This document shows positions 2,901 through 39,511 of a stretch of 61,895 nt of DNA, one piece after another. Origin of the DNA: a virus. The translations under genes and the position numbers were made by a program. The notes below the pieces were generated by a model. It had not been told where the DNA came from, searched no databases, and saw only the letters and a program-made list of their open reading frames with translations. Location: IMG/VR virus record IMGVR_UViG_3300035564_000051, positions 1-61,895 of that record; one strand, written 5' to 3'. How positions within the stretch are numbered: the first letter of the stretch is position 1; the number at the start of each line of letters is the position of its first letter.

Positions 2901-5900
2901 TGTCAATGCCAGCCTTTGACATACCGCCCCCACCGCCGAAGAAAGTAGCTGCCGCTGGTGAGTTTAACATTCCACCACCGCCACCGAAGAAGCCTGTTCA
3001 AACTCCCGGCCTCGGCAATACCGCGGCTTTCAACAAAGGAATTGATGTATCTACCCCAGAAGGTGCAAAAAAAGCACAAGGGCAAGCCAGCGTCAAAACC
3101 GAACCTTCAATTCTTCCGGGCGTAACCGTCACAGCCAAACGCCCAACCGAAGGCGCGATCAACCTTCCCCCGGTTCCAGAAAAAGAACTTCAAGCCGGAA
3201 TAAGGACACTACCTACTCCACCTTCGATCACAACTCCAAGTACAGAAACCGAACTCGCTTATGAGGGCTTCAAGAAGGAGATAGAGAAATCGACGGGTCA
3301 TAAGCAGCCGGAACTCTCAAGTATCGGTGAAGCGCAAAAGTATCTAGCCGAGATGGGTGGACGCGAAAGGTGGTTACAGGCCGCGCCGCTCTATGCAGAG
3401 GCGTTAAGGAAAGCTCCGTTCATTGGCCCAATCTTCGGGGGTGCGGAAACCGTAGCATTGGCAGCGAAAGAACCAGACAACCTATCGAAAGCACTTCAAG
3501 CCGCACAAGGTCTAGGTGAAGGTGCATTTGGAATTATGATGGCGCACGCCGCGGCCGCTCCCGCGATGCAGGCATTTCAAGCTATGGGACAAACCGGAAT
3601 AGATCCCGGAAAGCCTGTTCGGGAATTTTCTAGCAAGTATGCGCAGTGGGAAGCTCAGTCGAAACTCGGTATCAGCGATCCTCACCAGCTAGAAAAAGTT
3701 GGCGAGTTTGGTGGTATGGTAGGCGAACTCGGAATGTGGACGCTTGCGACGATGGCCCCCGCCTTACTGGGGAAATTTCAGGCAGGCACGGCAGGCCCGG
3801 AAGATGTCCGAGCCGCATTCGACATCATGCAGAATGCCCGCGCCGAAAACATCAAAGGCCCGGTGAGCGCGCACATCGTTGACCGCGTCGCATCTCAAGT
3901 GGGAAAGAACAAATTGGCCGGAGGACTGCTTGCCGGAATATCGAAGAAACTGGAATCTGGCGCAGCCTTATCGAATGAGGAAATGAACATTGTTCGTGAG
4001 AACTCGCCGGAGCAATACAAGACAGTCCTTGATGCTCTTCTGACCCGTCAGGAAGATGTCAGGCCATCCGAAGGCGCGACCCCGATCCTTGAAGGCAAAC
4101 CCGCACCAGAACAAGCGGGAATCGTTCAATCCAAGCCCGATGCGAATATCGCATATCGCGAACAGCAAATCTCTGACTTGATGAAGCGCAATCCATCAAT
4201 GCGCCGCGCCGATGCGGAAGCAATGGTTCAAGGCCAGAAGGCTCCTGAATCAAGACTCGTAAAGCCTCAAGGTGAAATCACTCGCACCGGAGAACAGGCA
4301 AGGGAAATTCCACCGCCACCGCCGAGAAGGATCGAATCTTCTGCGCGTACACCAGAAGTGCCGGGAAAAGGAATCACCCCGTTAGAGAAACCTATTCCAG
4401 CGATTGAAGAGAAGCCTATTCCGGCGGTGGAAAAGAAGGTTCCCGACATCAAAGAATTTGAAAAGAGGACAAAACTCTACAAGCCAGAGTTGGCACTTGG
4501 ACTACATCAGAACCCCTTCATCACTCCAGACGGTTTGCTCACGCCTCCGTACACCGCTCACAGCGACTTGGTTCGTGACTACAACGGGACGCGCGACATA
4601 CAAGGATTTATGAATGAAACGGGATATGTCAGACTGAAGGGAGAAGGCGACGCAATCAACGTCGAGATGGTGAATAAGCCAACATCCGAACAGTTTGAAA
4701 CGATTGAAACTGCATCCCCAACCGGAAAAATCCGATGGGATATTACCGGACCCGATGGGAAGATCAGGAAGAGCGGAGAGGCAGATGATTTAGAGACATT
4801 CAAACAACAAATGGATCGAGAAACTTTTTCTTCTCGACCCGCGCCTCAAACCTCTTCCGACTTCACCCAAAGAAGCCTTGAGAAGATCACAGAGAAGAAA
4901 GCAGCGAAGAAGACAGCAGTAGAACAGAGGAAAAAACCATTACCCCCCGGACAGAGGAAAAAACCATTACCCCCCGGTGAGATTCGCGGTAGCCAAGAAC
5001 CCACGTTACAGCCCGCGACGCAAGAACGTGGTGAGGCCATCGGGGAGGTAAAGGTTCCCGTCGCCCCCAAAACGATTCCACCCGGAGAACTCGAAGTCCG
5101 CAGTCTAGCCAAGCCAGCAACCGCGCCGCCATCCCCAGAGGACTTAGCCTCTCGCGCCGCAGAGAACAAAAAACAATCTCTCGGTCCAGTAAGGCATCAA
5201 GACATCACCAAAGCAGAACTAGACTACAAATCCAAGCTAGAACAATTTGGTGAGGACGCGCCCGAGACCAAAGCCGCAGAGCAAAAGGTCAAAGACCTTA
5301 CCCAGAAGTACGAAGCCGCGAAGAAACCCGCAACCGAACCTCTCCCCGAATTCAAATCATCCGAAGAGGCAGTTGAATTTGGCCGTAAGTACCCTGAGAG
5401 AATCCCAGAACTAGAAGCCCGCGCCAATGAAGCCACAGAAGCCTCACGGTCATTCAAGGATGAAGTCATTCCCGGTGAAGAACGCCCTCAAAGGTTAGAG
5501 CGCCTCAATCAAGCCATGCAACACGCAGTCCGCGCTCAACTAGCCCATGAAGCAATAGACTTCGCCAAAAATCCCAAGAGAGAAACCCCCATTGAAAAGA
5601 TCAGGAGGGAAGAGAAGGAAGCAGCAATCCCCAAGCCTCAGGCCCCAAAGGAGAAACAACCGTGGGAGCAAACCAAGGCTGAGTACATCAAGGCGAATGA
5701 AGGCGAGATCGTCCCGACCCCCGGTGAGAGGTCGAAACAGCGTCAATCCACAAAAGAAGAACGCGCATACGCTCATAAGAATATCGTTGCAAGTGCAATC
5801 GAACGCGGCGAATCTATTCCCGAATCAGTCCTCAAAGACTACCCTGATCTTGCTTTACCAAAGGAGAAAGCCGAACCAACGCTTCAAGAGAAAGCGGAAC

Positions 5901-7093
5901 CGCTAACTCGCCGCCAATCCGAATTGCAGAGGCAAATCAGGGCTATTGGCGAGAAGAAGGCTGGCAGGGCGATGGATCAGTGGGCGCAAGTTAGGGCATC
6001 CGCAGAACGAACACCCGATGGTCGCAAATTAGCAAAAGAGTACGATGAGGTTAGCCGCCAGATCATAAAGCTGGAAGAAGCCGAAACCAAACCCGAACCT
6101 CTCACTCAATCCAAGCTCGAAGAAGCCGCTCAGGCCGCTCCAAAAGCAGGACTCTCCCTTAAAGAACAGAAGAAAACATTGCTAGGGGAATTGGATAAGG
6201 CCAAAGAAATCGTTGGTGAGCGGGAACTCGGAAAGGTAGAGAAGGATCTCGTAGAAAAGACCGGAATGAATCTTCTCGATACCCGCCAAGAAATTAGCCG
6301 AATTGACAATCTGAGTAACGCAACTCGCAAACAAAGAGATTGGAAGTTCCAAGCAAGAGAGTTCTTGAAAGCCCATGAGGACGAAATCCAGAAAGAGATT
6401 GTCGATCGGTACGGCCCCGATCTAAAAAAGGCCGGACTGAAACTTGATGATGAGGGTAGAATTGTTGTTGACGTACCGGGAGACGGAACTTTTCACACGC
6501 CCATTGGTGCGATTGATGAGTATGCAAACAGAATTGAAAAGGGGTTCCCGAAGGATTCACGGCAAGCCAAAGCCGCGCCTGTTGAAGAGAAGCCAACACC
6601 TAAAGAACCCGAACAGGTTGCTCCCAAGTCTCCCGACCTCAAGAAGCGCATCAACTCTCTGGCTAACGAGAACATCTTGAACCTCTCCGGTTCTCGTAAT
6701 GCAGAATCCCGTAGAAAACTCCTTCAAGACCTCACAGGGGAAAAGGTCTCTAAGTCTGAGGCGGGAATAGGTAAGCTCCGCGATGCGCTCGCAAAAAGCG
6801 TCGGCATAGAACCAACTGAATCAGCAATCAACAAGTGGCTCCGCACCCCAGAGCCAAAGGTAGAACCACCCAAGCCACCTACACCCCAAGAGATTGCAGC
6901 AGCAAATGAGAAGATCGTCTCAGAGATTCCCCCAACTCATTTGAGAGAGATCGAAGTTGACACCAAAGTATTCGATGAGGAATCCGGCAAGGTCATTACC
7001 GAGAAACGTCCGGCAAAAGAAGCCCTTGAAGCCCTAGATGCAGATTCCAAGTTGATGAAAGCATTTCTTGATTGTGTGAAGGGACTAGCCTAA
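2900..7093 (+). CDS. Very large Pro/Lys/Glu-rich internal virion-type protein
   Basis: 1397 aa starting at GTG 2900 (or ATG 2906). Proline clusters IPPPPPKK occur at residues about 8 and 24 and IPPPPPRR near 470. A hydrophobic Ala/Gly-rich stretch at about 190-300 (GLGEGAFGIMMAHAAAAPAMQ; FGGMVGELGMWTLATMAPALLG) could be membrane-active. Most of the remainder is charged, disordered or coiled coil. A 27-bp tandem duplication lies at 4924-4977. Size, composition and position before fibre-like genes suggest a giant ejection protein comparable in role to T7 gp16 or P22 gp16/20, with no visible lytic transglycosylase motif. The function is inferred. Confidence 0.5.
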   Translation: MSMPAFDIPPPPPKKVAAAGEFNIPPPPPKKPVQTPGLGNTAAFNKGIDVSTPEGAKKAQGQASVKTEPSILPGVTVTAKRPTEGAINLPPVPEKELQAGIRTLPTPPSITTPSTETELAYEGFKKEIEKSTGHKQPELSSIGEAQKYLAEMGGRERWLQAAPLYAEALRKAPFIGPIFGGAETVALAAKEPDNLSKALQAAQGLGEGAFGIMMAHAAAAPAMQAFQAMGQTGIDPGKPVREFSSKYAQWEAQSKLGISDPHQLEKVGEFGGMVGELGMWTLATMAPALLGKFQAGTAGPEDVRAAFDIMQNARAENIKGPVSAHIVDRVASQVGKNKLAGGLLAGISKKLESGAALSNEEMNIVRENSPEQYKTVLDALLTRQEDVRPSEGATPILEGKPAPEQAGIVQSKPDANIAYREQQISDLMKRNPSMRRADAEAMVQGQKAPESRLVKPQGEITRTGEQAREIPPPPPRRIESSARTPEVPGKGITPLEKPIPAIEEKPIPAVEKKVPDIKEFEKRTKLYKPELALGLHQNPFITPDGLLTPPYTAHSDLVRDYNGTRDIQGFMNETGYVRLKGEGDAINVEMVNKPTSEQFETIETASPTGKIRWDITGPDGKIRKSGEADDLETFKQQMDRETFSSRPAPQTSSDFTQRSLEKITEKKAAKKTAVEQRKKPLPPGQRKKPLPPGEIRGSQEPTLQPATQERGEAIGEVKVPVAPKTIPPGELEVRSLAKPATAPPSPEDLASRAAENKKQSLGPVRHQDITKAELDYKSKLEQFGEDAPETKAAEQKVKDLTQKYEAAKKPATEPLPEFKSSEEAVEFGRKYPERIPELEARANEATEASRSFKDEVIPGEERPQRLERLNQAMQHAVRAQLAHEAIDFAKNPKRETPIEKIRREEKEAAIPKPQAPKEKQPWEQTKAEYIKANEGEIVPTPGERSKQRQSTKEERAYAHKNIVASAIERGESIPESVLKDYPDLALPKEKAEPTLQEKAEPLTRRQSELQRQIRAIGEKKAGRAMDQWAQVRASAERTPDGRKLAKEYDEVSRQIIKLEEAETKPEPLTQSKLEEAAQAAPKAGLSLKEQKKTLLGELDKAKEIVGERELGKVEKDLVEKTGMNLLDTRQEISRIDNLSNATRKQRDWKFQAREFLKAHEDEIQKEIVDRYGPDLKKAGLKLDDEGRIVVDVPGDGTFHTPIGAIDEYANRIEKGFPKDSRQAKAAPVEEKPTPKEPEQVAPKSPDLKKRINSLANENILNLSGSRNAESRRKLLQDLTGEKVSKSEAGIGKLRDALAKSVGIEPTESAINKWLRTPEPKVEPPKPPTPQEIAAANEKIVSEIPPTHLREIEVDTKVFDEESGKVITEKRPAKEALEALDADSKLMKAFLDCVKGLA
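4924..4977 (+). repeat. 27-bp perfect tandem duplication inside the large internal protein
   Basis: Two adjacent identical 27-bp copies (4924-4950 and 4951-4977) encode RKKPLPPG twice in a row. This is an in-frame expansion of a Lys/Pro linker, typical of replication slippage in a disordered region. Confidence 0.9.
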
Positions 7094-7412: not shown

Positions 7413-7787
7413 ATGGACGCTCACAAAAACTTTGCATATACGACCGTAACCGTAGCTCCAACACCGGCAAGCTCGGGGCTATCTCTGACCGTGGCCGACG
7501 GGACAGTGTTTCCGGCAGTTCCATTCAACTGCCCGGTATGGCCTATCAACGTGCAACCGTTGAAATCTAACGCTGAGATCATCAGGGTTACAAACATTGT
7601 GGGCAATGTGTTGACAATTCTGCGGAGACAGGAAGAAAGCTCTGCAAGGGAGATTCAGGCCGGAGATCAGATCATGGCTGGTATTACCGCCAAGACCCTG
7701 ACGGATGCAGAAAATGGAAACTATGACGGCGGCATTGCTGCAAGCGTCTATGGTGGCACAACTGGAATTGATGGAGGCACGGCTTAA
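7413..7787 (+). CDS. Small beta-rich virion protein
   Basis: 124 aa, two bases after the preceding stop. It begins MDAHKNFAYTTVTVAPTPASSG, and the segment VWPINVQPLKSNAEIIRVTNI...VLTILRRQEESSAREIQAGDQI is a short all-beta domain. This kind of domain, in which residues of the form EIIRVT...TI.R.QE..., is frequent at the start of phage tail proteins that fix decorations to the baseplate. A Gly-rich tail follows. Structural role inferred. Confidence 0.5.
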   Translation: MDAHKNFAYTTVTVAPTPASSGLSLTVADGTVFPAVPFNCPVWPINVQPLKSNAEIIRVTNIVGNVLTILRRQEESSAREIQAGDQIMAGITAKTLTDAENGNYDGGIAASVYGGTTGIDGGTA

Positions 7788-13496: not shown

Positions 13497-13536
13497 CTGG
13501 ACAAATATGTCGCACTCACTTTGAGCCTTGAAAACA

Positions 13537-15867
13537 ATGGATGAATCACTCAAAAGTAAATGTTGCTGCGTGATAGATTTCGGAACCTGGCCCGAATTAG
13601 CCATCCGCCTCTCGCGTGAGTTCGGACGGGTACTCTATTTCTCCGCGTGGATTCAGGCATTCCCGAAACGAAACGACTATCAGGTAGGCATTGGTCTCGA
13701 CGGTGTAGAGCGAATAAGCGATTGGGAATCTCACTTTGACGAGATCGACCTTTTTGTTTTCCCACACCTCTACAACGCGCCGCTGCAAAATCTTCTTCGC
13801 TCGATGGGGAAACTCGTCTGGGGCAACGGTGGTGCAGAAGAAGCCGAACTCGACCGCTTCGCATTCAAGAAGTGGATGGAGCAGGTTGGCCTTCCGGTAG
13901 TTCCTACCGCGCAAATCATCGGCATGAAAGCTCTGAGAGACCATCTGAAGAAGGTCGAGGACAAGTACATCAAGACCAGCCGCTTTAGAGGCGATCAAGA
14001 AACCTGGCATCATGTCGATTATGAAACCTCAGAATCCTTCCTCGACAAAAGAGAGTACTCACTTGGCCCAATCAAAGATCAGGTGGAGTTCTTGGTGGAA
14101 GATTCAGTCAAGGGCATTGAGGTAGGTTTTGACGGCTGGACAATCAACGGGCAGTACCCCGAAGTGGCCTCACTGGGTTATGAGATCAAGGATGTCGGAT
14201 TTGTCGGAGTCATCAAACCCTATTCTGAATTTCCACCTGAGATGACAGCCATCAACGAGAAGATGTCGATGATCTTTCAGACAAATAAGTCTCGCGGATG
14301 GTACTCGAATGAAGTGCGAATCACGGAGGATGGAAGATTCTATTTGACTGATCCTACAATTCGATGCTTCAGCTCTGACACGGAGATTCTTACCGAGAAT
14401 GGATGGAAGTTGTTCCCCAATCTCATTCGCGGCGAGAAAGTAGCAACGCTGAACCCCGAGACCCGCCAGATCGAATATCAATCACCAACGGCATACATCG
14501 GCTATCCGTACGCAGGGGAGATGGTCTCGATTAAGTCGGACGGAAGAAGCCTTGACCAGCTCGTTACGCCCAATCACAACGTCTGGTATCTGACGCGCAA
14601 AGATACGGGACACGCCGAGCGGCTAACATCCTGCCGCGCCGATCAAATGTCCGGCAAGATGCGAATTCCCCGAACGGGAACATGGGTGGGGGAAGAACAG
14701 CCATTCTTCCAGCTTCCCGCGTATTCAAACGAATGGGATTCTGGAATGAATGGAAAAATTCACAAGAGAAAATACTGCCCGCCGATTGACATTGAGATGG
14801 ACCTTTGGCTCAAGTTCCTTGGGTTCTATTTGTCTGAGGGATCTTGTCATGGTGGCGGATGGTCGGTTCAGGTGACGCAGACGAAGCACCTAGAGGAATT
14901 CAGGTTCGTTATCGCACAACTTCCGTTTCCTTGGGGCGAGGACAAGGGCGGGCTTGCGCTACACTCGGTTCAGCTTCATCAATACCTAAGACAGTTCGGG
15001 CTTTGCGACAAGAAGTTCGTTCCTGATTTCGTTAAGAGGTTATCGCCACGCCAAATCAACATTTTCCTTGATGCGTACACGATGGGAGATGGCTACGTCA
15101 AGGGTGGCATCCAAAGAATAATCTCCACGACATCAAAACGAATGGCTGATGATCTTCAAGAGCTTTTCTTCAAGGTGGGTTCATTGGCGAACATCCGAAG
15201 AGACAGAGTAAAAGGAACACCAATGAGTGTTCGAGGTGGAAAAATCTATATCAGAAATCACGATGGCTATGTAGTGAAGGAGCGATCCCGCCGCTCGGTA
15301 TTCTATCTCGATACCTGCGACAAACGGTATAATTACGTCAAGCGCGTTCCATACGAAGGAATGGTGTTCGATGTGACAGTTCCCAACGGAATCGTCTATG
15401 TTCGCCGCAATGGGAAGCCCGGATGGTCCGGCAACTGTCCCTATCCACCCGGCGAAGCTCTGATGGAAGTCTATGAGAACCTCGGGGAAATTCTTTACTA
15501 CGGCGCGCAAGGCCAAATGGTAGTTCCGCGACCCTTAACCAAATACTTCGCCATTGCGCGCATCGAAGCTCCGACAAGTGAGGATGATTGGAACACTCTC
15601 TTCTTCCCGCCCGAACTCCGTCAGTGGATCAAGCTCCACGATCTTACCATCATCAATGGCAGATCCTATACCGTTCCCCACAGAATCGAAGAGTGGACGC
15701 GCATAGGAAGTGTGATTGGTTTTGGCGATACGGTCGATGATGCGATTGGAACAGTAAGGGAAAGAGCCGAGCAACTCAAGGGGTTCAAGCTCAGTACCAC
15801 CGAAGACAAACTTGATGAGGCGAAAGACGCGATTCAGGCAGGAGAGGAAGCAGGAATTGAATTCTAG
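13537..15867 (+). CDS. ATP-grasp carboxylate-amine ligase, interrupted by an intein
   Basis: 776-aa precursor from ATG 13537 (TTG 13528 is possible); about 419 aa after splicing. The extein opens with a pre-ATP-grasp strand (CCCVIDFGTWPELA) and contains YIKTSRFRGDQETW, VEFLVEDSVKGIEVGFDG and, at the metal site, EVRITEDGRFYLTDPTIR. These fit ATP-grasp enzymes, which activate a carboxylate as acyl phosphate and join it to an amine. The intein sits exactly at the 'DPTIR/CPYPPG' metal/ATP-site motif. The next two genes are a GNAT and a C39-like peptidase, suggesting peptide or protein modification. The substrate is unknown. Confidence 0.75.
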   Translation: MDESLKSKCCCVIDFGTWPELAIRLSREFGRVLYFSAWIQAFPKRNDYQVGIGLDGVERISDWESHFDEIDLFVFPHLYNAPLQNLLRSMGKLVWGNGGAEEAELDRFAFKKWMEQVGLPVVPTAQIIGMKALRDHLKKVEDKYIKTSRFRGDQETWHHVDYETSESFLDKREYSLGPIKDQVEFLVEDSVKGIEVGFDGWTINGQYPEVASLGYEIKDVGFVGVIKPYSEFPPEMTAINEKMSMIFQTNKSRGWYSNEVRITEDGRFYLTDPTIRCFSSDTEILTENGWKLFPNLIRGEKVATLNPETRQIEYQSPTAYIGYPYAGEMVSIKSDGRSLDQLVTPNHNVWYLTRKDTGHAERLTSCRADQMSGKMRIPRTGTWVGEEQPFFQLPAYSNEWDSGMNGKIHKRKYCPPIDIEMDLWLKFLGFYLSEGSCHGGGWSVQVTQTKHLEEFRFVIAQLPFPWGEDKGGLALHSVQLHQYLRQFGLCDKKFVPDFVKRLSPRQINIFLDAYTMGDGYVKGGIQRIISTTSKRMADDLQELFFKVGSLANIRRDRVKGTPMSVRGGKIYIRNHDGYVVKERSRRSVFYLDTCDKRYNYVKRVPYEGMVFDVTVPNGIVYVRRNGKPGWSGNCPYPPGEALMEVYENLGEILYYGAQGQMVVPRPLTKYFAIARIEAPTSEDDWNTLFFPPELRQWIKLHDLTIINGRSYTVPHRIEEWTRIGSVIGFGDTVDDAIGTVRERAEQLKGFKLSTTEDKLDEAKDAIQAGEEAGIEF
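14365..15435 (+). other. Intein with LAGLIDADG homing-endonuclease domain
   Basis: 357-codon in-frame insertion. It starts at Cys (CFSSDTEILTENGWK, block A), has a TPNHNVW block B, then two LAGLIDADG-type motifs (FLGFYLSEGSC and LDAYTMGDGYVKGG), and ends with GMVFDVTVPNGIVYVRRNG then WSGN before a +1 Cys. The usual penultimate His is replaced by Gly, while the terminal Asn and +1 Cys are intact. The exteins join as ...DPTIR-CPYPPG.... Boundaries are set by these motifs. Confidence 0.88.
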
Positions 15868-35808: not shown

Positions 35809-35862
35809 ATGATCCAAGTACTTACCGGCGATGCCTTGGAAGTGAAAGGACAAGGGAAATGA
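35809..35862 (+). other. 17-codon mini-ORF resembling a DNA methyltransferase N-terminus
   Basis: AAGGAG precedes ATG 35809. The product MIQVLTGDALEVKGQGK opens like many phage/bacterial DNA methyltransferases ('..GDaLevL..') and then stops, overlapping the ATG of the next gene. It is either a decayed methyltransferase start or a translational leader. Confidence 0.35.
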
Positions 35863-36719: not shown

Positions 36720-36974
36720 ATGAGCGAACAAACCTTACTTGAAAAAGCGAAATCATTCAAGCCGCCAGTTAATTCTCACGAAAAATTCAGCGACGAATAC
36801 GTTGAGTTGGCTGTGGCTTTTTTGAATGGCGAAGTAAGTAACTCTCAAGTGAAGCGTGCCATCGACAAGGAGAGGGCGGGGTCAAGTTATATTTACAGAA
36901 TCGGAATCGCTATTCGCACCGCTATTGCCGACGGTAGGCTCGAACCGATAACATTCAAACGGGAGGCCAAATGA
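36720..36974 (+). CDS. Small hypothetical protein
   Basis: 84 aa with GGAGG before ATG 36720. Helical (EQTLLEKAKSFKPPV; DEYVELAVAFLNGEVSNSQVKRAIDKERAG), the middle resembling a helix-turn-helix (LNGEVSNSQVKRAI). It overlaps the coiled-coil gene that starts the boundary-repeat array. The function is unknown. Confidence 0.45.
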   Translation: MSEQTLLEKAKSFKPPVNSHEKFSDEYVELAVAFLNGEVSNSQVKRAIDKERAGSSYIYRIGIAIRTAIADGRLEPITFKREAK

Positions 36975-37498
36975 GCGACCCTGAAATTCTCACCGAGGAA
37001 AAGCTGGACGAAATCTTAGCCGATCATCCACACCCCGAATCAGTAGCGCGAGACTATGTAGTCCACGAACTGATATTCAACATTCGGGAGGCGAGGAAAG
37101 AATTAGCGAAGGTAAGGGAAGAACACGCTGTTGTCATTCAGAATATCAACGACAACTGGCAAGGGCTTTACAATGCGAGAATTGAACAGGCAAACGCCCA
37201 ACTCTCTCAGGCAAAGGCAGAGGTGGAGAGACTTCAATCAATTACCCTTCACGATACAGGTCGTGTAGTAGATGCAGAAGCGAAGGTTGTTGCGCTTGAG
37301 GTCGATGTTGCCACCCTTCGCCGTGACTTGTCAGAGGCGTATGAGGCAATTAGGAAATCGCAAGCTGTTCTTGCGGGATGGATTGTTCCCGATAGCATTG
37401 TGACTGACGCTGAAGCTCTGGACAAACTACTCGGAATCCTCGATGACAAGAAACTTGTAGCGTTTCTCACCGCACAGAAAGCGAGGGATGGGGAATGA
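36971..37498 (+). CDS. Coiled-coil protein, array member 1
   Basis: 175 aa, ATGA start overlap. A long charged coil (about 40-135) includes LSEAYEAIRKSQ, shared with the genes at 37844 and 39044. It ends AFLTAQKARDGE, a C-terminus shared with three other array genes. The gene finishes inside a repeated boundary sequence that also carries the next gene's ribosome site. The function is unknown; it looks like a mosaic of recombined segments. Confidence 0.55.
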   Translation: MSDPEILTEEKLDEILADHPHPESVARDYVVHELIFNIREARKELAKVREEHAVVIQNINDNWQGLYNARIEQANAQLSQAKAEVERLQSITLHDTGRVVDAEAKVVALEVDVATLRRDLSEAYEAIRKSQAVLAGWIVPDSIVTDAEALDKLLGILDDKKLVAFLTAQKARDGE

Positions 37499-37659
37499 CA
37501 AGCCGAATAGTGGCACTGATTGCACTTATTCTGATGATTCATGGATGGTTGATAGAAAGCACTCCGATGATGGTTGATGGTGTGGTTGCTACATTCATAT
37601 CAATCTTCATTCGTGGCATTGAAGAAACTCGGAAAAAGAAAGCGAGGGATGGGAAATGA
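37495..37659 (+). CDS. 54-aa membrane protein, array member 2
   Basis: ATG 37495 lies in the boundary repeat. One hydrophobic stretch (MTSRIVALIALILMIHGWLI) and a second weaker one (VVATFISIFIRG) are followed by a basic end ETRKKKARDGK, whose last residues match the shared array C-terminus. This gene therefore seems to have been inserted between two boundary repeats. Confidence 0.5.
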   Translation: MTSRIVALIALILMIHGWLIESTPMMVDGVVATFISIFIRGIEETRKKKARDGK

Positions 37660-37847
37660 CACCGAAAGAACGAAAACAAGTAAGGTCGCTCATCAAGGTG
37701 TATGATGGTTACATCGAATTGCTCAACGCTGAACTTGAGGAAATTATTGTGCTTGCGACTTTGCACGGGTGGAAAAGTCACCGATACGAGGACGGCTTGA
37801 AAATGCGGAATCGAATCGCAGAACTGAAAAGGAGCATTTCACAATGA
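37656..37847 (+). CDS. 63-aa helical protein, array member 3
   Basis: Starts MTPKERKQVRSLIKVYDGYI within a boundary repeat (the MTPKE start is shared). It is helical throughout (NAELEEIIVLATLHGW; DGLKMRNRIAELKRSISQ). It lacks the KARDG ending, so its downstream boundary differs. It overlaps the next ATG. The function is unknown. Confidence 0.5.
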   Translation: MTPKERKQVRSLIKVYDGYIELLNAELEEIIVLATLHGWKSHRYEDGLKMRNRIAELKRSISQ

Positions 37848-38398
37848 CCGCGAAAGAACTGAGAGAACAAATAACTGACGAGGTTCAGCGGGAGTTTTCA
37901 ATCAATGCCGAAGGGTGGAAGTTGGAAGGAGTCTATACTCGCACCGTCGGAAACAAAACTGTTCAAGCCGTTCCATCGGCACACGATACGAAACGGTTGC
38001 GTAATGCGGTGATTGAAGCCCGTCTATCTGCTCGCCAGCTTGAGTCCCTTCTGTCCGACTCACAGAAAGAGGTGGCGAAGGCAGAGAAGGGATGGACAGA
38101 GGAACGCAACCACGCCGAAGATTCAGAGTTGCAACTATTCGGCATCTCTCGAAAACTCAACATTGAGGGTAGCATTAAGAACTGGCAGACTTCAATCTAC
38201 AAGGCAATCGCTGACCTTCAGAAACAGTTGTCAGAGGCGTATGAGGCGATAAGGGAAGATTGGCCTATTTGGATAGGTCAAACACCATTGGCTTATTCGT
38301 GCTCCAGATGCAGGGCGTTTGGGGAGACCAAAGAAAACTTTCCTCACAAGCCCACCTGCATCGTTCTCACCGCACAGAAAGCGAGGGATGGGAAATGA
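37844..38398 (+). CDS. Coiled-coil protein, array member 4
   Basis: 184 aa from ATG 37844. Begins MTAKELREQITDE, a variant of the shared array start. Central LSARQLESLLSDSQKEVAKAEK and LSEAYEAIREDW are shared with the genes at 39044 and 36971. A CxxC zinc-like pair (SCSRCRAFG) and a later Cys precede the shared ending LTAQKARDGK. This protein combines almost every repeated segment of the array. The function is unknown. Confidence 0.55.
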   Translation: MTAKELREQITDEVQREFSINAEGWKLEGVYTRTVGNKTVQAVPSAHDTKRLRNAVIEARLSARQLESLLSDSQKEVAKAEKGWTEERNHAEDSELQLFGISRKLNIEGSIKNWQTSIYKAIADLQKQLSEAYEAIREDWPIWIGQTPLAYSCSRCRAFGETKENFPHKPTCIVLTAQKARDGK

Positions 38399-38679
38399 AA
38401 CCATTGATTATGCCAATTCAGCGAACAAGGGAACAGAAAGAGGCCGGCTGTCCGCAATTTATCCCTTTTGCAAACATCGACACATATGAAATTCGCAAAC
38501 AAGCCCTTGCTAATCACGACCAAACATTGGAGAGGCTGGCTGAACGTGTAGGAATGAGTCCACAAGAGATGTATGCGATGGCTCACGGGATTCGTGGTAG
38601 GGATACTGAAAAGATTCTGATGGCAACGGCAATTCAATGGTTGATTCTCACCGCACAGAAAGCGAGGGATGGGGAATGA
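38395..38679 (+). CDS. HTH-like protein, array member 5
   Basis: 94 aa from ATG 38395, where the previous boundary repeat ends. TLERLAERVGMSPQEMYAMAHGIR (about 47-70) reads as a helix-turn-helix of the Cro/XRE kind. The protein ends QWLILTAQKARDGE, the shared array C-terminus, at a boundary repeat. Confidence 0.5.
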   Translation: MKPLIMPIQRTREQKEAGCPQFIPFANIDTYEIRKQALANHDQTLERLAERVGMSPQEMYAMAHGIRGRDTEKILMATAIQWLILTAQKARDGE

Positions 38680-38705
38680 CACCGAAAGAACTGAGAGAAC
38701 AATGA
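38676..38705 (+). pseudogene. Nine-codon remnant of an array gene start
   Basis: The boundary repeat's start MTPKELREQ is followed at once by TGA that overlaps the next ATG (38702). It therefore keeps the array start sequence but has lost its body, as expected if a different gene was joined behind it by recombination. Confidence 0.6.
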
Positions 38706-38917
38706 CAATTCTCTGCGATAGATGTGGCAAGCCGATGGAGATTGATGAAAACCAGCCGACGGACTTCGGAGGCAATCCCTGTACTTTCGGGGAATACGTT
38801 GCTCTTGCGAAGAACAATGAGTGTGTTTGGATTTGTTGCCAACCATGCTGTGATGCAATGCCCGACGCTGGACACTTTTTTGAAACGGGAAACTTCACCG
38901 CCATTCCATTGAACTAA
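38702..38917 (+). CDS. Small Cys-rich zinc-finger-like protein
   Basis: 71 aa from ATG 38702. TILCDRCGKPM gives a C-x2-C knuckle, with ICCQPCCDAMPDAGHFF as the second cluster. The frame extends upstream, but the remnant stop/start overlap marks the start. Probably a metal-binding accessory protein. Confidence 0.55.
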   Translation: MTILCDRCGKPMEIDENQPTDFGGNPCTFGEYVALAKNNECVWICCQPCCDAMPDAGHFFETGNFTAIPLN

Positions 38918-38931
38918 CGAGGGAAAGCCAA

Positions 38932-39054
38932 ATGAATCTACTTTTGCCAATACAGGCAATCATTGGTGTCATCATTGGCATCTTGGTAATCAACGGATTT
39001 GCCCAACTGGTTGTCAATTTTTTAATTAAGGAGAAACAACACCATGAATGCTGA
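38932..39054 (+). CDS. 40-aa membrane peptide
   Basis: ATG 38932 with GAGGGAAAG upstream. MNLLLPIQ is followed by one long hydrophobic helix (AIIGVIIGILVINGFAQLVV) and a charged end (KEKQHHEC). It overlaps the next gene by 11 bp. Confidence 0.5.
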   Translation: MNLLLPIQAIIGVIIGILVINGFAQLVVNFLIKEKQHHEC

Positions 39055-39511
39055 TGAATTAAGACAGCAATATGCTGACGAAACGAAGAGATGGTTACTT
39101 AATCACGATGCTGAAATGCCCTATCCCCAGTGGCTTGAGTCCCTTCTGTCTGACTCGCAGAAAGAGGTGGAGAGACTGACGAAAATCACTGACGACTATC
39201 CCGACTACGTCAAGGGTCTGCAAACAGATTTGTATGTGTTGAACGCTTCTAACGTTGCGTTGAGGTCAACATATCTTGGCGTGGCAAAAGAAAGCGATTC
39301 CCTTCGCCAATCCTTGCAGGAAGCCAGAGAAGCGATAGAATGGTGCGAGTCTCACAAGTCTCTGATTCTGGATGCAGAGAATAATCCTGTCGCAATTGAA
39401 GTGAAAGTGCCGGTGAGCGATTTTATTCATGGATTTGTCGATGCAATTAAACTCCAACGCTCCACAGAGAAAGGAGAGAAAGATGAAACTTCCAACGAAG
39501 AAAGACATTGA
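39044..39511 (+). CDS. Coiled-coil protein, array member 6
   Basis: 155 aa with AAGGAG upstream. MNADELRQQYADETKRW is a diverged form of the array start. It contains PQWLESLLSDSQKEVERL and LRQSLQEAREAIEWC, related to the genes at 37844 and 36971. The C-terminal half differs (IEVKVPVSDFIHGFVDAIKL). It lacks the KARDG end. Likely a paralogue that diverged before the boundary repeats homogenised. The function is unknown. Confidence 0.55.
   Translation: MNADELRQQYADETKRWLLNHDAEMPYPQWLESLLSDSQKEVERLTKITDDYPDYVKGLQTDLYVLNASNVALRSTYLGVAKESDSLRQSLQEAREAIEWCESHKSLILDAENNPVAIEVKVPVSDFIHGFVDAIKLQRSTEKGEKDETSNEERH

Follow-up and report, generated by a model that had tools for sequence, protein, structure and literature searches.

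The viral record analysed here (61,895 bases in full, hereafter the window, and possibly a fragment) carries a short gene junction that is repeated upstream of terL, in an accessory region where the genes are small and overlap. The evidence supports a module kept at the DNA level, with synonymous sites conserved and flanking sequence at background similarity. This module probably spread within the array through duplication of coiled-coil genes together with recombination at shared islands of sequence. Phage accessory regions turn over fast, and how their genes become joined is disputed, illegitimate recombination being set against homology at short boundaries. Where gene families common to several phages are flanked by phage-specific junctions, the boundary model becomes computationally testable, the prediction being that gene bodies follow the family and termini follow the phage.

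A repeated junction at gene boundaries

A 37-nt sequence is found at positions 37464 and 38645 (37/37) and at 38364 (35/37), and its 3′ 25 nt only are found at 37637 (24/25; Table 1). Compared with copy 4, copy 1 is identical at 37/37 nt, copy 3 matches at 37 of 39 nt, and copy 2 at 34 of 35 nt (37637-37671 against 38657-38691); when the alignment of copy 2 is begun at 37625, the initial 12 nt mismatch. Four copies of one sequence had been proposed originally, and three of these are full whereas the fourth, copy 2, is partial. The repeat encodes LTAQKARDG(E/K), places GAGG eight bases 5′ of the start and includes an ATGA overlap of the stop with the next start. All copies are located at ribosome sites, immediately upstream of the starts of several non-structural genes, so that the predicted ribosome site and overlap with the next start are indeed present. 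The statement that the next gene often begins MTPKELREQ holds in part, as two of the four starts read MTPKE (37656 and 38676) but the others read MTSRIVAL (37495) and MKPLIMPI (38395). In self-comparison of the 36.9-39.85 kb region (match +1, mismatch −1), pairs of copies scored 23-37, against 12-15 for the best matches in 12 dinucleotide shuffles, and the repetition of one sequence at gene boundaries is therefore real. No further copies occur elsewhere across the 61,895-base record.

Codon usage indicates what is being conserved. All 11 of 11 codons of the C-tail are identical, against 3.9 expected from the shared peptide (P about 5e-6), and codon identity also exceeds what the peptide needs in two islands internal to genes, S (P 3e-4) and A (P 0.007). 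A conserved RNA or promoter inside the boundary was considered and ruled out: folding z-scores of all four copies (−0.3 to 0.8) were no better than those of shuffles, the boundary region holds one promoter-like site against 4.3 expected and no terminator on the + strand, and the boundary has no match in Rfam.

Table 1. Features of the accessory stretch and its surroundings, in window coordinates.
Feature	Position	Strand	Remarks
DUF5131-like gene	35859		One flank of the accessory stretch; PHROG 2045
Coiled-coil gene, 175 aa	36971..37498	+	A-island and C-tail; partial paralogue of 37844; coiled coil judged from sequence
A-island (LSEAYEAIRK), first copy	37328..37357	+	27/30 to 38228-38257
Boundary copy 1	37464..37500	+	C-tail LTAQKARDGE*, SD-like GAGG, ATGA stop/start overlap
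Putative membrane peptide, 54 aa	37495..37659	+	Ends KARDGK; membrane character judged from sequence
Boundary copy 2 (partial)	37637..37671 (core 37637-37661)	+	KARDGK* and start MTPKE
63-aa gene	37656..37847	+	N-head MTPKERKQ, without C-tail
Coiled-coil gene, 184 aa from ATG at 37844	37844..38398	+	N-head MTAKELREQ, S-island, A-island, C-tail
S-island (LESLLSDSQKEV), first copy	38038..38078	+	38/41 to 39133-39173
A-island, second copy	38228..38257	+	
Boundary copy 3	38364..38402 (core 38364-38400)	+	LTAQKARDGK* and ATGA
NHDQTLERLAER-family gene, 94 aa	38395..38679	+	C-tail at end; weak HTH similarity
Boundary copy 4	38645..38702 (core 38645-38681)	+	LTAQKARDGE* and 9-codon start MTPKELREQ; full tail-head junction
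9-codon frame MTPKELREQ*	38676..38705	+	N-head stub; TGA overlaps next ATG
Cys-rich small gene	38702..38917	+	After stub
Coiled-coil gene	39044..39511	+	Divergent N-head MNADELRQQ, S-island, without C-tail
S-island, second copy	39133..39173	+	
DNA methyltransferase-like gene	40460		Other flank of the accessory stretch; label by eye
terL	43227		Protein scan

Genes and islands between the copies

Four kinds of island recur in this array, namely an N-head (MT.KELREQ), S, A (LSEAYEAIR) and the C-tail. Their order is the same in the genes at 36971, 37844 and 39044, with some islands missing or much diverged in each, and these three coiled-coil genes are therefore partial paralogues. The genes between the copies had been taken for unrelated, which fits the membrane peptide and the 38395 gene but not the coiled-coil genes, of which 36971 and 37844 share the A-island (27/30) and 37844 and 39044 the S-island (38/41). 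The islands within genes are 90-93% identical and embedded in unrelated sequence: the 106 nt that separate A-island from C-tail in 36971 and 37844, aligned along a single diagonal, agree at 26 positions, and the null expectation is 27.9 ± 4.6. The membrane-like peptide at 37495, which has no match in Pfam or PHROG, and the 38395 gene carry the tail as their sole island. The HTH label of the latter is weak (Pfam E 0.18). The frame of the Cys-rich gene is open from 38669 also, so an alternative upstream start is possible.

The name DUF5131 for the flanking gene at 35859 is one that we presume to apply. Among ten proteins scanned outside the region of this possibly fragmentary record, no named recombinase and no integrase were found, nor was an integrase found among the genes of the region itself. 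Elsewhere in the window, an intein-like insertion (CFSSDTEIL ... SGN; label assigned by eye) lies at 14365-15435 within a 779-aa reading frame (13528-15867).

Relatives of the window and junctions in other phages

Searches for relatives of individual genes gave no hits for the 37844 gene in the viral_contigs and phages collections, for the 36971 gene in genome_contigs and phages, or for the 39044 and Cys-rich genes in phages; the 3.1-kb stretch likewise had no relative in phages, and the boundary peptide pattern had 0 matches in viral_contigs. Across these three collections, no relative was found with the window's boundary or with any of the enclosed genes other than 38395, and no gene exchange event is therefore seen at these copies. 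A looser peptide pattern retrieved four stretches that were judged to be chance matches: two have an in-frame stop just 5′ of the match, one is a gene end without a close downstream start, and the fourth (contig L096) shows 20/23 identity ahead of a real start but has a doubtful upstream frame. This last stretch, AAAAAGCGAGGGACGGCAAATGA (L096:127-149, − strand), differs from the boundary core by 3 mismatches, lies where a methyltransferase-like gene begins and is probably due to chance.

TerL relatives of the window were found at 76% identity (L004/L005), 62% (L088), 61% (L006) and 38-42% (L007), with none in genome_contigs and 803 records in phages, every one under 60% identity. The tested accessory genes that L005 has in common with the window amount to a short match in a methyltransferase and one small gene beside terL. 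At the matching place upstream of terL it has two boundary families of its own, at 4 and about 6 starts and of varying similarity: TCAAACGGAGGGAAAGAAATGA-like boundaries at 6386, 6691, 6904 and 7359, and ACAAACCACAAAGGAGCACAACAATGAC-like boundaries at 7709, 7970, 8130, 8359, about 8520 and 8889. These repeats are mostly noncoding. Outside L004/L005, the L005 sequence ACAAACCACAAAGGAGC was found in just two contigs, at a start in L092 and away from starts in L091, too few occurrences to claim its transfer between phages. No boundary repeats of note were seen upstream of terL in L088, where the genes were judged to run the other way, as no + strand frames were convincing. In L008, a 21-nt exact boundary repeat, CCGGAGAAAGCCAGCGTTGAA, precedes two TTG starts (4100-4120 and 4611-4631) and is read by the upstream genes in two different frames, which indicates that the DNA, and not an encoded peptide, is what is conserved. 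The stop/start junction architecture thus recurs with other sequences in L005/L004 and L100 (see below), and in a smaller form in L008.

A gene family with different termini in another phage

The body of the 38395 gene matches five viral contigs, L097-L101 (5 of 22 candidate stretches confirmed), all sharing NHDQTLERLA(E/Q)R; since L098 and L099 carry the same homologue and look like one, four distinct homologous contigs remain. None of the five homologues ends in LTAQKARDG, which is weak taken alone because C-termini vary throughout the NHDQTLER family. The homologue in L100 (4920-5225) is more informative. It lies within a chain of small genes whose stop-start overlaps are mostly GTGA, and it begins MKQGTQL, as does its next neighbour (5222, membrane-like), while the preceding gene (4528, Cro-type HTH) begins MKQGTQ. 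Three consecutive genes, of Cro-type HTH, NHDQTLER-family and membrane-like type, accordingly share the start MKQGTQ, and two of the three, the homologue and the gene following it, end in RSRK. At the DNA level, the 21-nt junction CAGGAGTCGAAAGTGAAGCAG is present in two exact copies; pairs scoring 26 and 23 lie above all 20 shuffles, and 17-nt exact matches lie within the shuffle range (maximum 18 in 20). Because the L100 homologue bears L100's own head and tail, its body in this case tracks the family and its termini the phage, which lends indirect support to exchange at gene boundaries. The parallel with the window extends to a gene containing Cys, at 5386, and to a frame of seven codons, at 6781. 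Such frames of 7-9 codons that begin with the local head sequence, overlapping or near the next start, are seen at L100:6781-6804 and at 38676-38705 of the window.

Clear boundary repeats around the NHDQTLER gene are found in this one of the four distinct contigs. Around the homologue in L097 there is a 40-nt match at 70%, L101 has no repeat of 22 nt or more, and L098/L099 have no clear boundary repeats there. Gene 68 of Rhodobacter phage RcKemmy is a weak homologue (E 0.06) around which no shared boundaries are evident. Repeats of other kinds were noted in these contigs. In L098:44-1541 and L099:1-1650, a repeat of 22-38 nt that ends near GTGGATAGAAAC recurs 17-19 times at a spacing of about 65-240 nt, forming a CRISPR-like array, on viral contigs, whose repeats are unusually degenerate. 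L097:267-1637 contains nine imperfect 85-nt GGC-rich repeats, most of them ending near GGCAAGGGCACTAAGTGC.

Repeats at gene starts across contigs

Start-region repeats were surveyed in 88 contigs (87 loci and the window; 2,067 called genes), thinned to 61 independent contigs with 1,566 genes; duplicates (L001-L003, L089 and L090) were left out, and contigs from L093 onwards were not included. The sample was picked by shared methyltransferase, TerL or boundary pattern and its genes were called with a simple caller, so that the fraction is rough. Among the independent contigs, 25 of 24,029 start-region pairs, in 16 contigs, scored at least 15, compared with 0, 0, 1, 2, 0 and 0 pairs at six shifted offsets and 1.7 (scaled) across contigs. 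As many raw pairs in A/T-rich phages are of low complexity, the count used is that with A/T-rich matches removed, which gives 13 pairs scoring at least 14 in 11 contigs, against 0.67; 10 of these 13 are no more than 3 kb apart, a distance that holds for 25% of all pairs (5,961/24,121). Within-contig repeats therefore concentrate at gene starts in these 61 contigs, a signal explained in part by the ribosome-binding constraints that start regions share.

Origin of the junction

The reading that we consider probable takes the module to be the last 10-11 codons of a small gene, the ribosome-binding stretch, the ATGA overlap and, for two of the copies, the opening codons of the gene that follows. 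It would have spread by duplication of coiled-coil genes and by recombination, general or of annealase type, at shared islands of 25-41 nt, which would exchange the bodies of genes and leave their termini and the coupled start in place. Phage annealases can work with thirty to forty identical bases. Coupled translation would keep any gene inserted at the junction expressed, and we infer that the genes moved by way of recombination at the islands and that selection maintains translational coupling. The original prediction of swaps that preserve stop and start is thus borne out as regards a DNA-level junction module at stop/start overlaps and the same architecture elsewhere, but a swap at the boundary itself was not seen. 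A bolder version, which we put forward tentatively and hold to be less likely true than false, is that each phage keeps a resident junction, made up of tail codons, ribosome site, coupled start and head codons, and imprints it on incoming small genes, which would acquire resident termini, so that junctions would act as standing, sequence-specific landing sites at which cassettes could be exchanged with no need of a dedicated recombinase. The NHDQTLERLAER family, with the window's tail in the window and L100's head and tail in L100, would fit such a scheme.

Other origins have to be weighed against this. The array could have arisen by plain tandem duplication of an ancestral coiled-coil gene with N-head, S, A and C-tail, its middles diverging or being deleted and a few foreign genes dropping in, with no repeated exchange at boundaries. 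The common order of islands in 36971, 37844 and 39044 is as such a history would have it, and so is the single diagonal (offset 900) that holds both the A- and the C-islands when 36971 is aligned with 37844. Gradual divergence should however leave intermediate similarity, whereas the A-to-C stretch is at background and the islands are 90-97% identical, including most synonymous sites; the tail on the 38395 gene and on the membrane peptide would still require a junction event. We regard this origin as unlikely. A slightly better, though still doubtful, candidate is a conserved signal for translation start or coupling, bound by the ribosome or a regulator and not a site of recombination. The location of every copy at a ribosome site, the same positional bias in other phages, and the published start-associated sequences (SAS) and similar motifs (PMC3203893, PMC7302621) all agree with it. 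It does not account for similarity that covers about 33 nt of coding sequence 5′ of the stop and, in copies 2 and 4, some 13 nt beyond the start, nor for the two of four island kinds that lie inside genes, away from starts; RNA structure above shuffles and a promoter are also lacking. Finally, LTAQKARDG(E/K) might be a shared functional tail for localisation or partner binding, given that three proteins terminate in the same 9-10 residues and one more terminates in KARDGK. Codon identity in excess of peptide need, the analogous L008 repeat read in two frames, and the retention of only six residues in copy 2 make such a tag very improbable.

Comparison with known systems

Cassettes of integron type rely on attC hairpin sites and an integrase, and in RNA folding the boundary showed no structure beyond that of shuffles. 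In the ninR chain of phage lambda, small accessory genes are linked by ATGA with related junctions and short conserved boundary sequences; the window's ATGA-linked accessory genes resemble this chain in arrangement. PeSL cassettes of T4-type phages are said to have been described by Arbiol et al. in 2010 as intergenic elements that recur and by which small genes were proposed to be shuffled, and the proposal for the window is alike in this respect. PeSLs, however, carry an early promoter and a stem-loop, neither of which was found in the window's boundary. They are mentioned in PMC4503421.

The SAS of Cluster K mycobacteriophages (Pope et al. 2011, PMC3203893) and of Microbacterium cluster EF (PMC7302621) are a start-side analogue of the window's boundary: a repeated asymmetric sequence stands at the ribosome sites of different non-structural genes, and the upstream stop can fall inside it. 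Sequence and copy number differ, the SAS following a GGGATAGGAGCCC-type consensus of 13 bp that a genome carries 11-19 times, and the window's repeat measuring 25-37 nt, in four copies, and being mostly coding.

A closer parallel is offered by Island3 of Cluster I mycobacteriophages. In Pope et al. 2011 (PMC3029335), who also cite short conserved boundary sequences, gp67/gp68 are compared with Brujita: the genes share a 3′ end of 18 residues (60 bp), and the proposal is that a gene is gained or lost when the copies recombine. There, as in the window, adjoining genes share gene-end DNA, which in the window joins unrelated bodies. In that case two near-identical genomes display the event, whereas the window is without a known close relative; the window in turn has four copies that include the next start, together with islands inside genes. 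A literature search of partial coverage found no paper on the window's own boundary. What the window adds to published work is the presence of several copies within a single genome, of islands internal to genes, and the comparison of heads and tails with L100. From its sequence, the window's junction would belong with phage boundary sequences, Island3 gp67/gp68 being the closest, and the idea of gene exchange at such junctions is plausible and published in kind.
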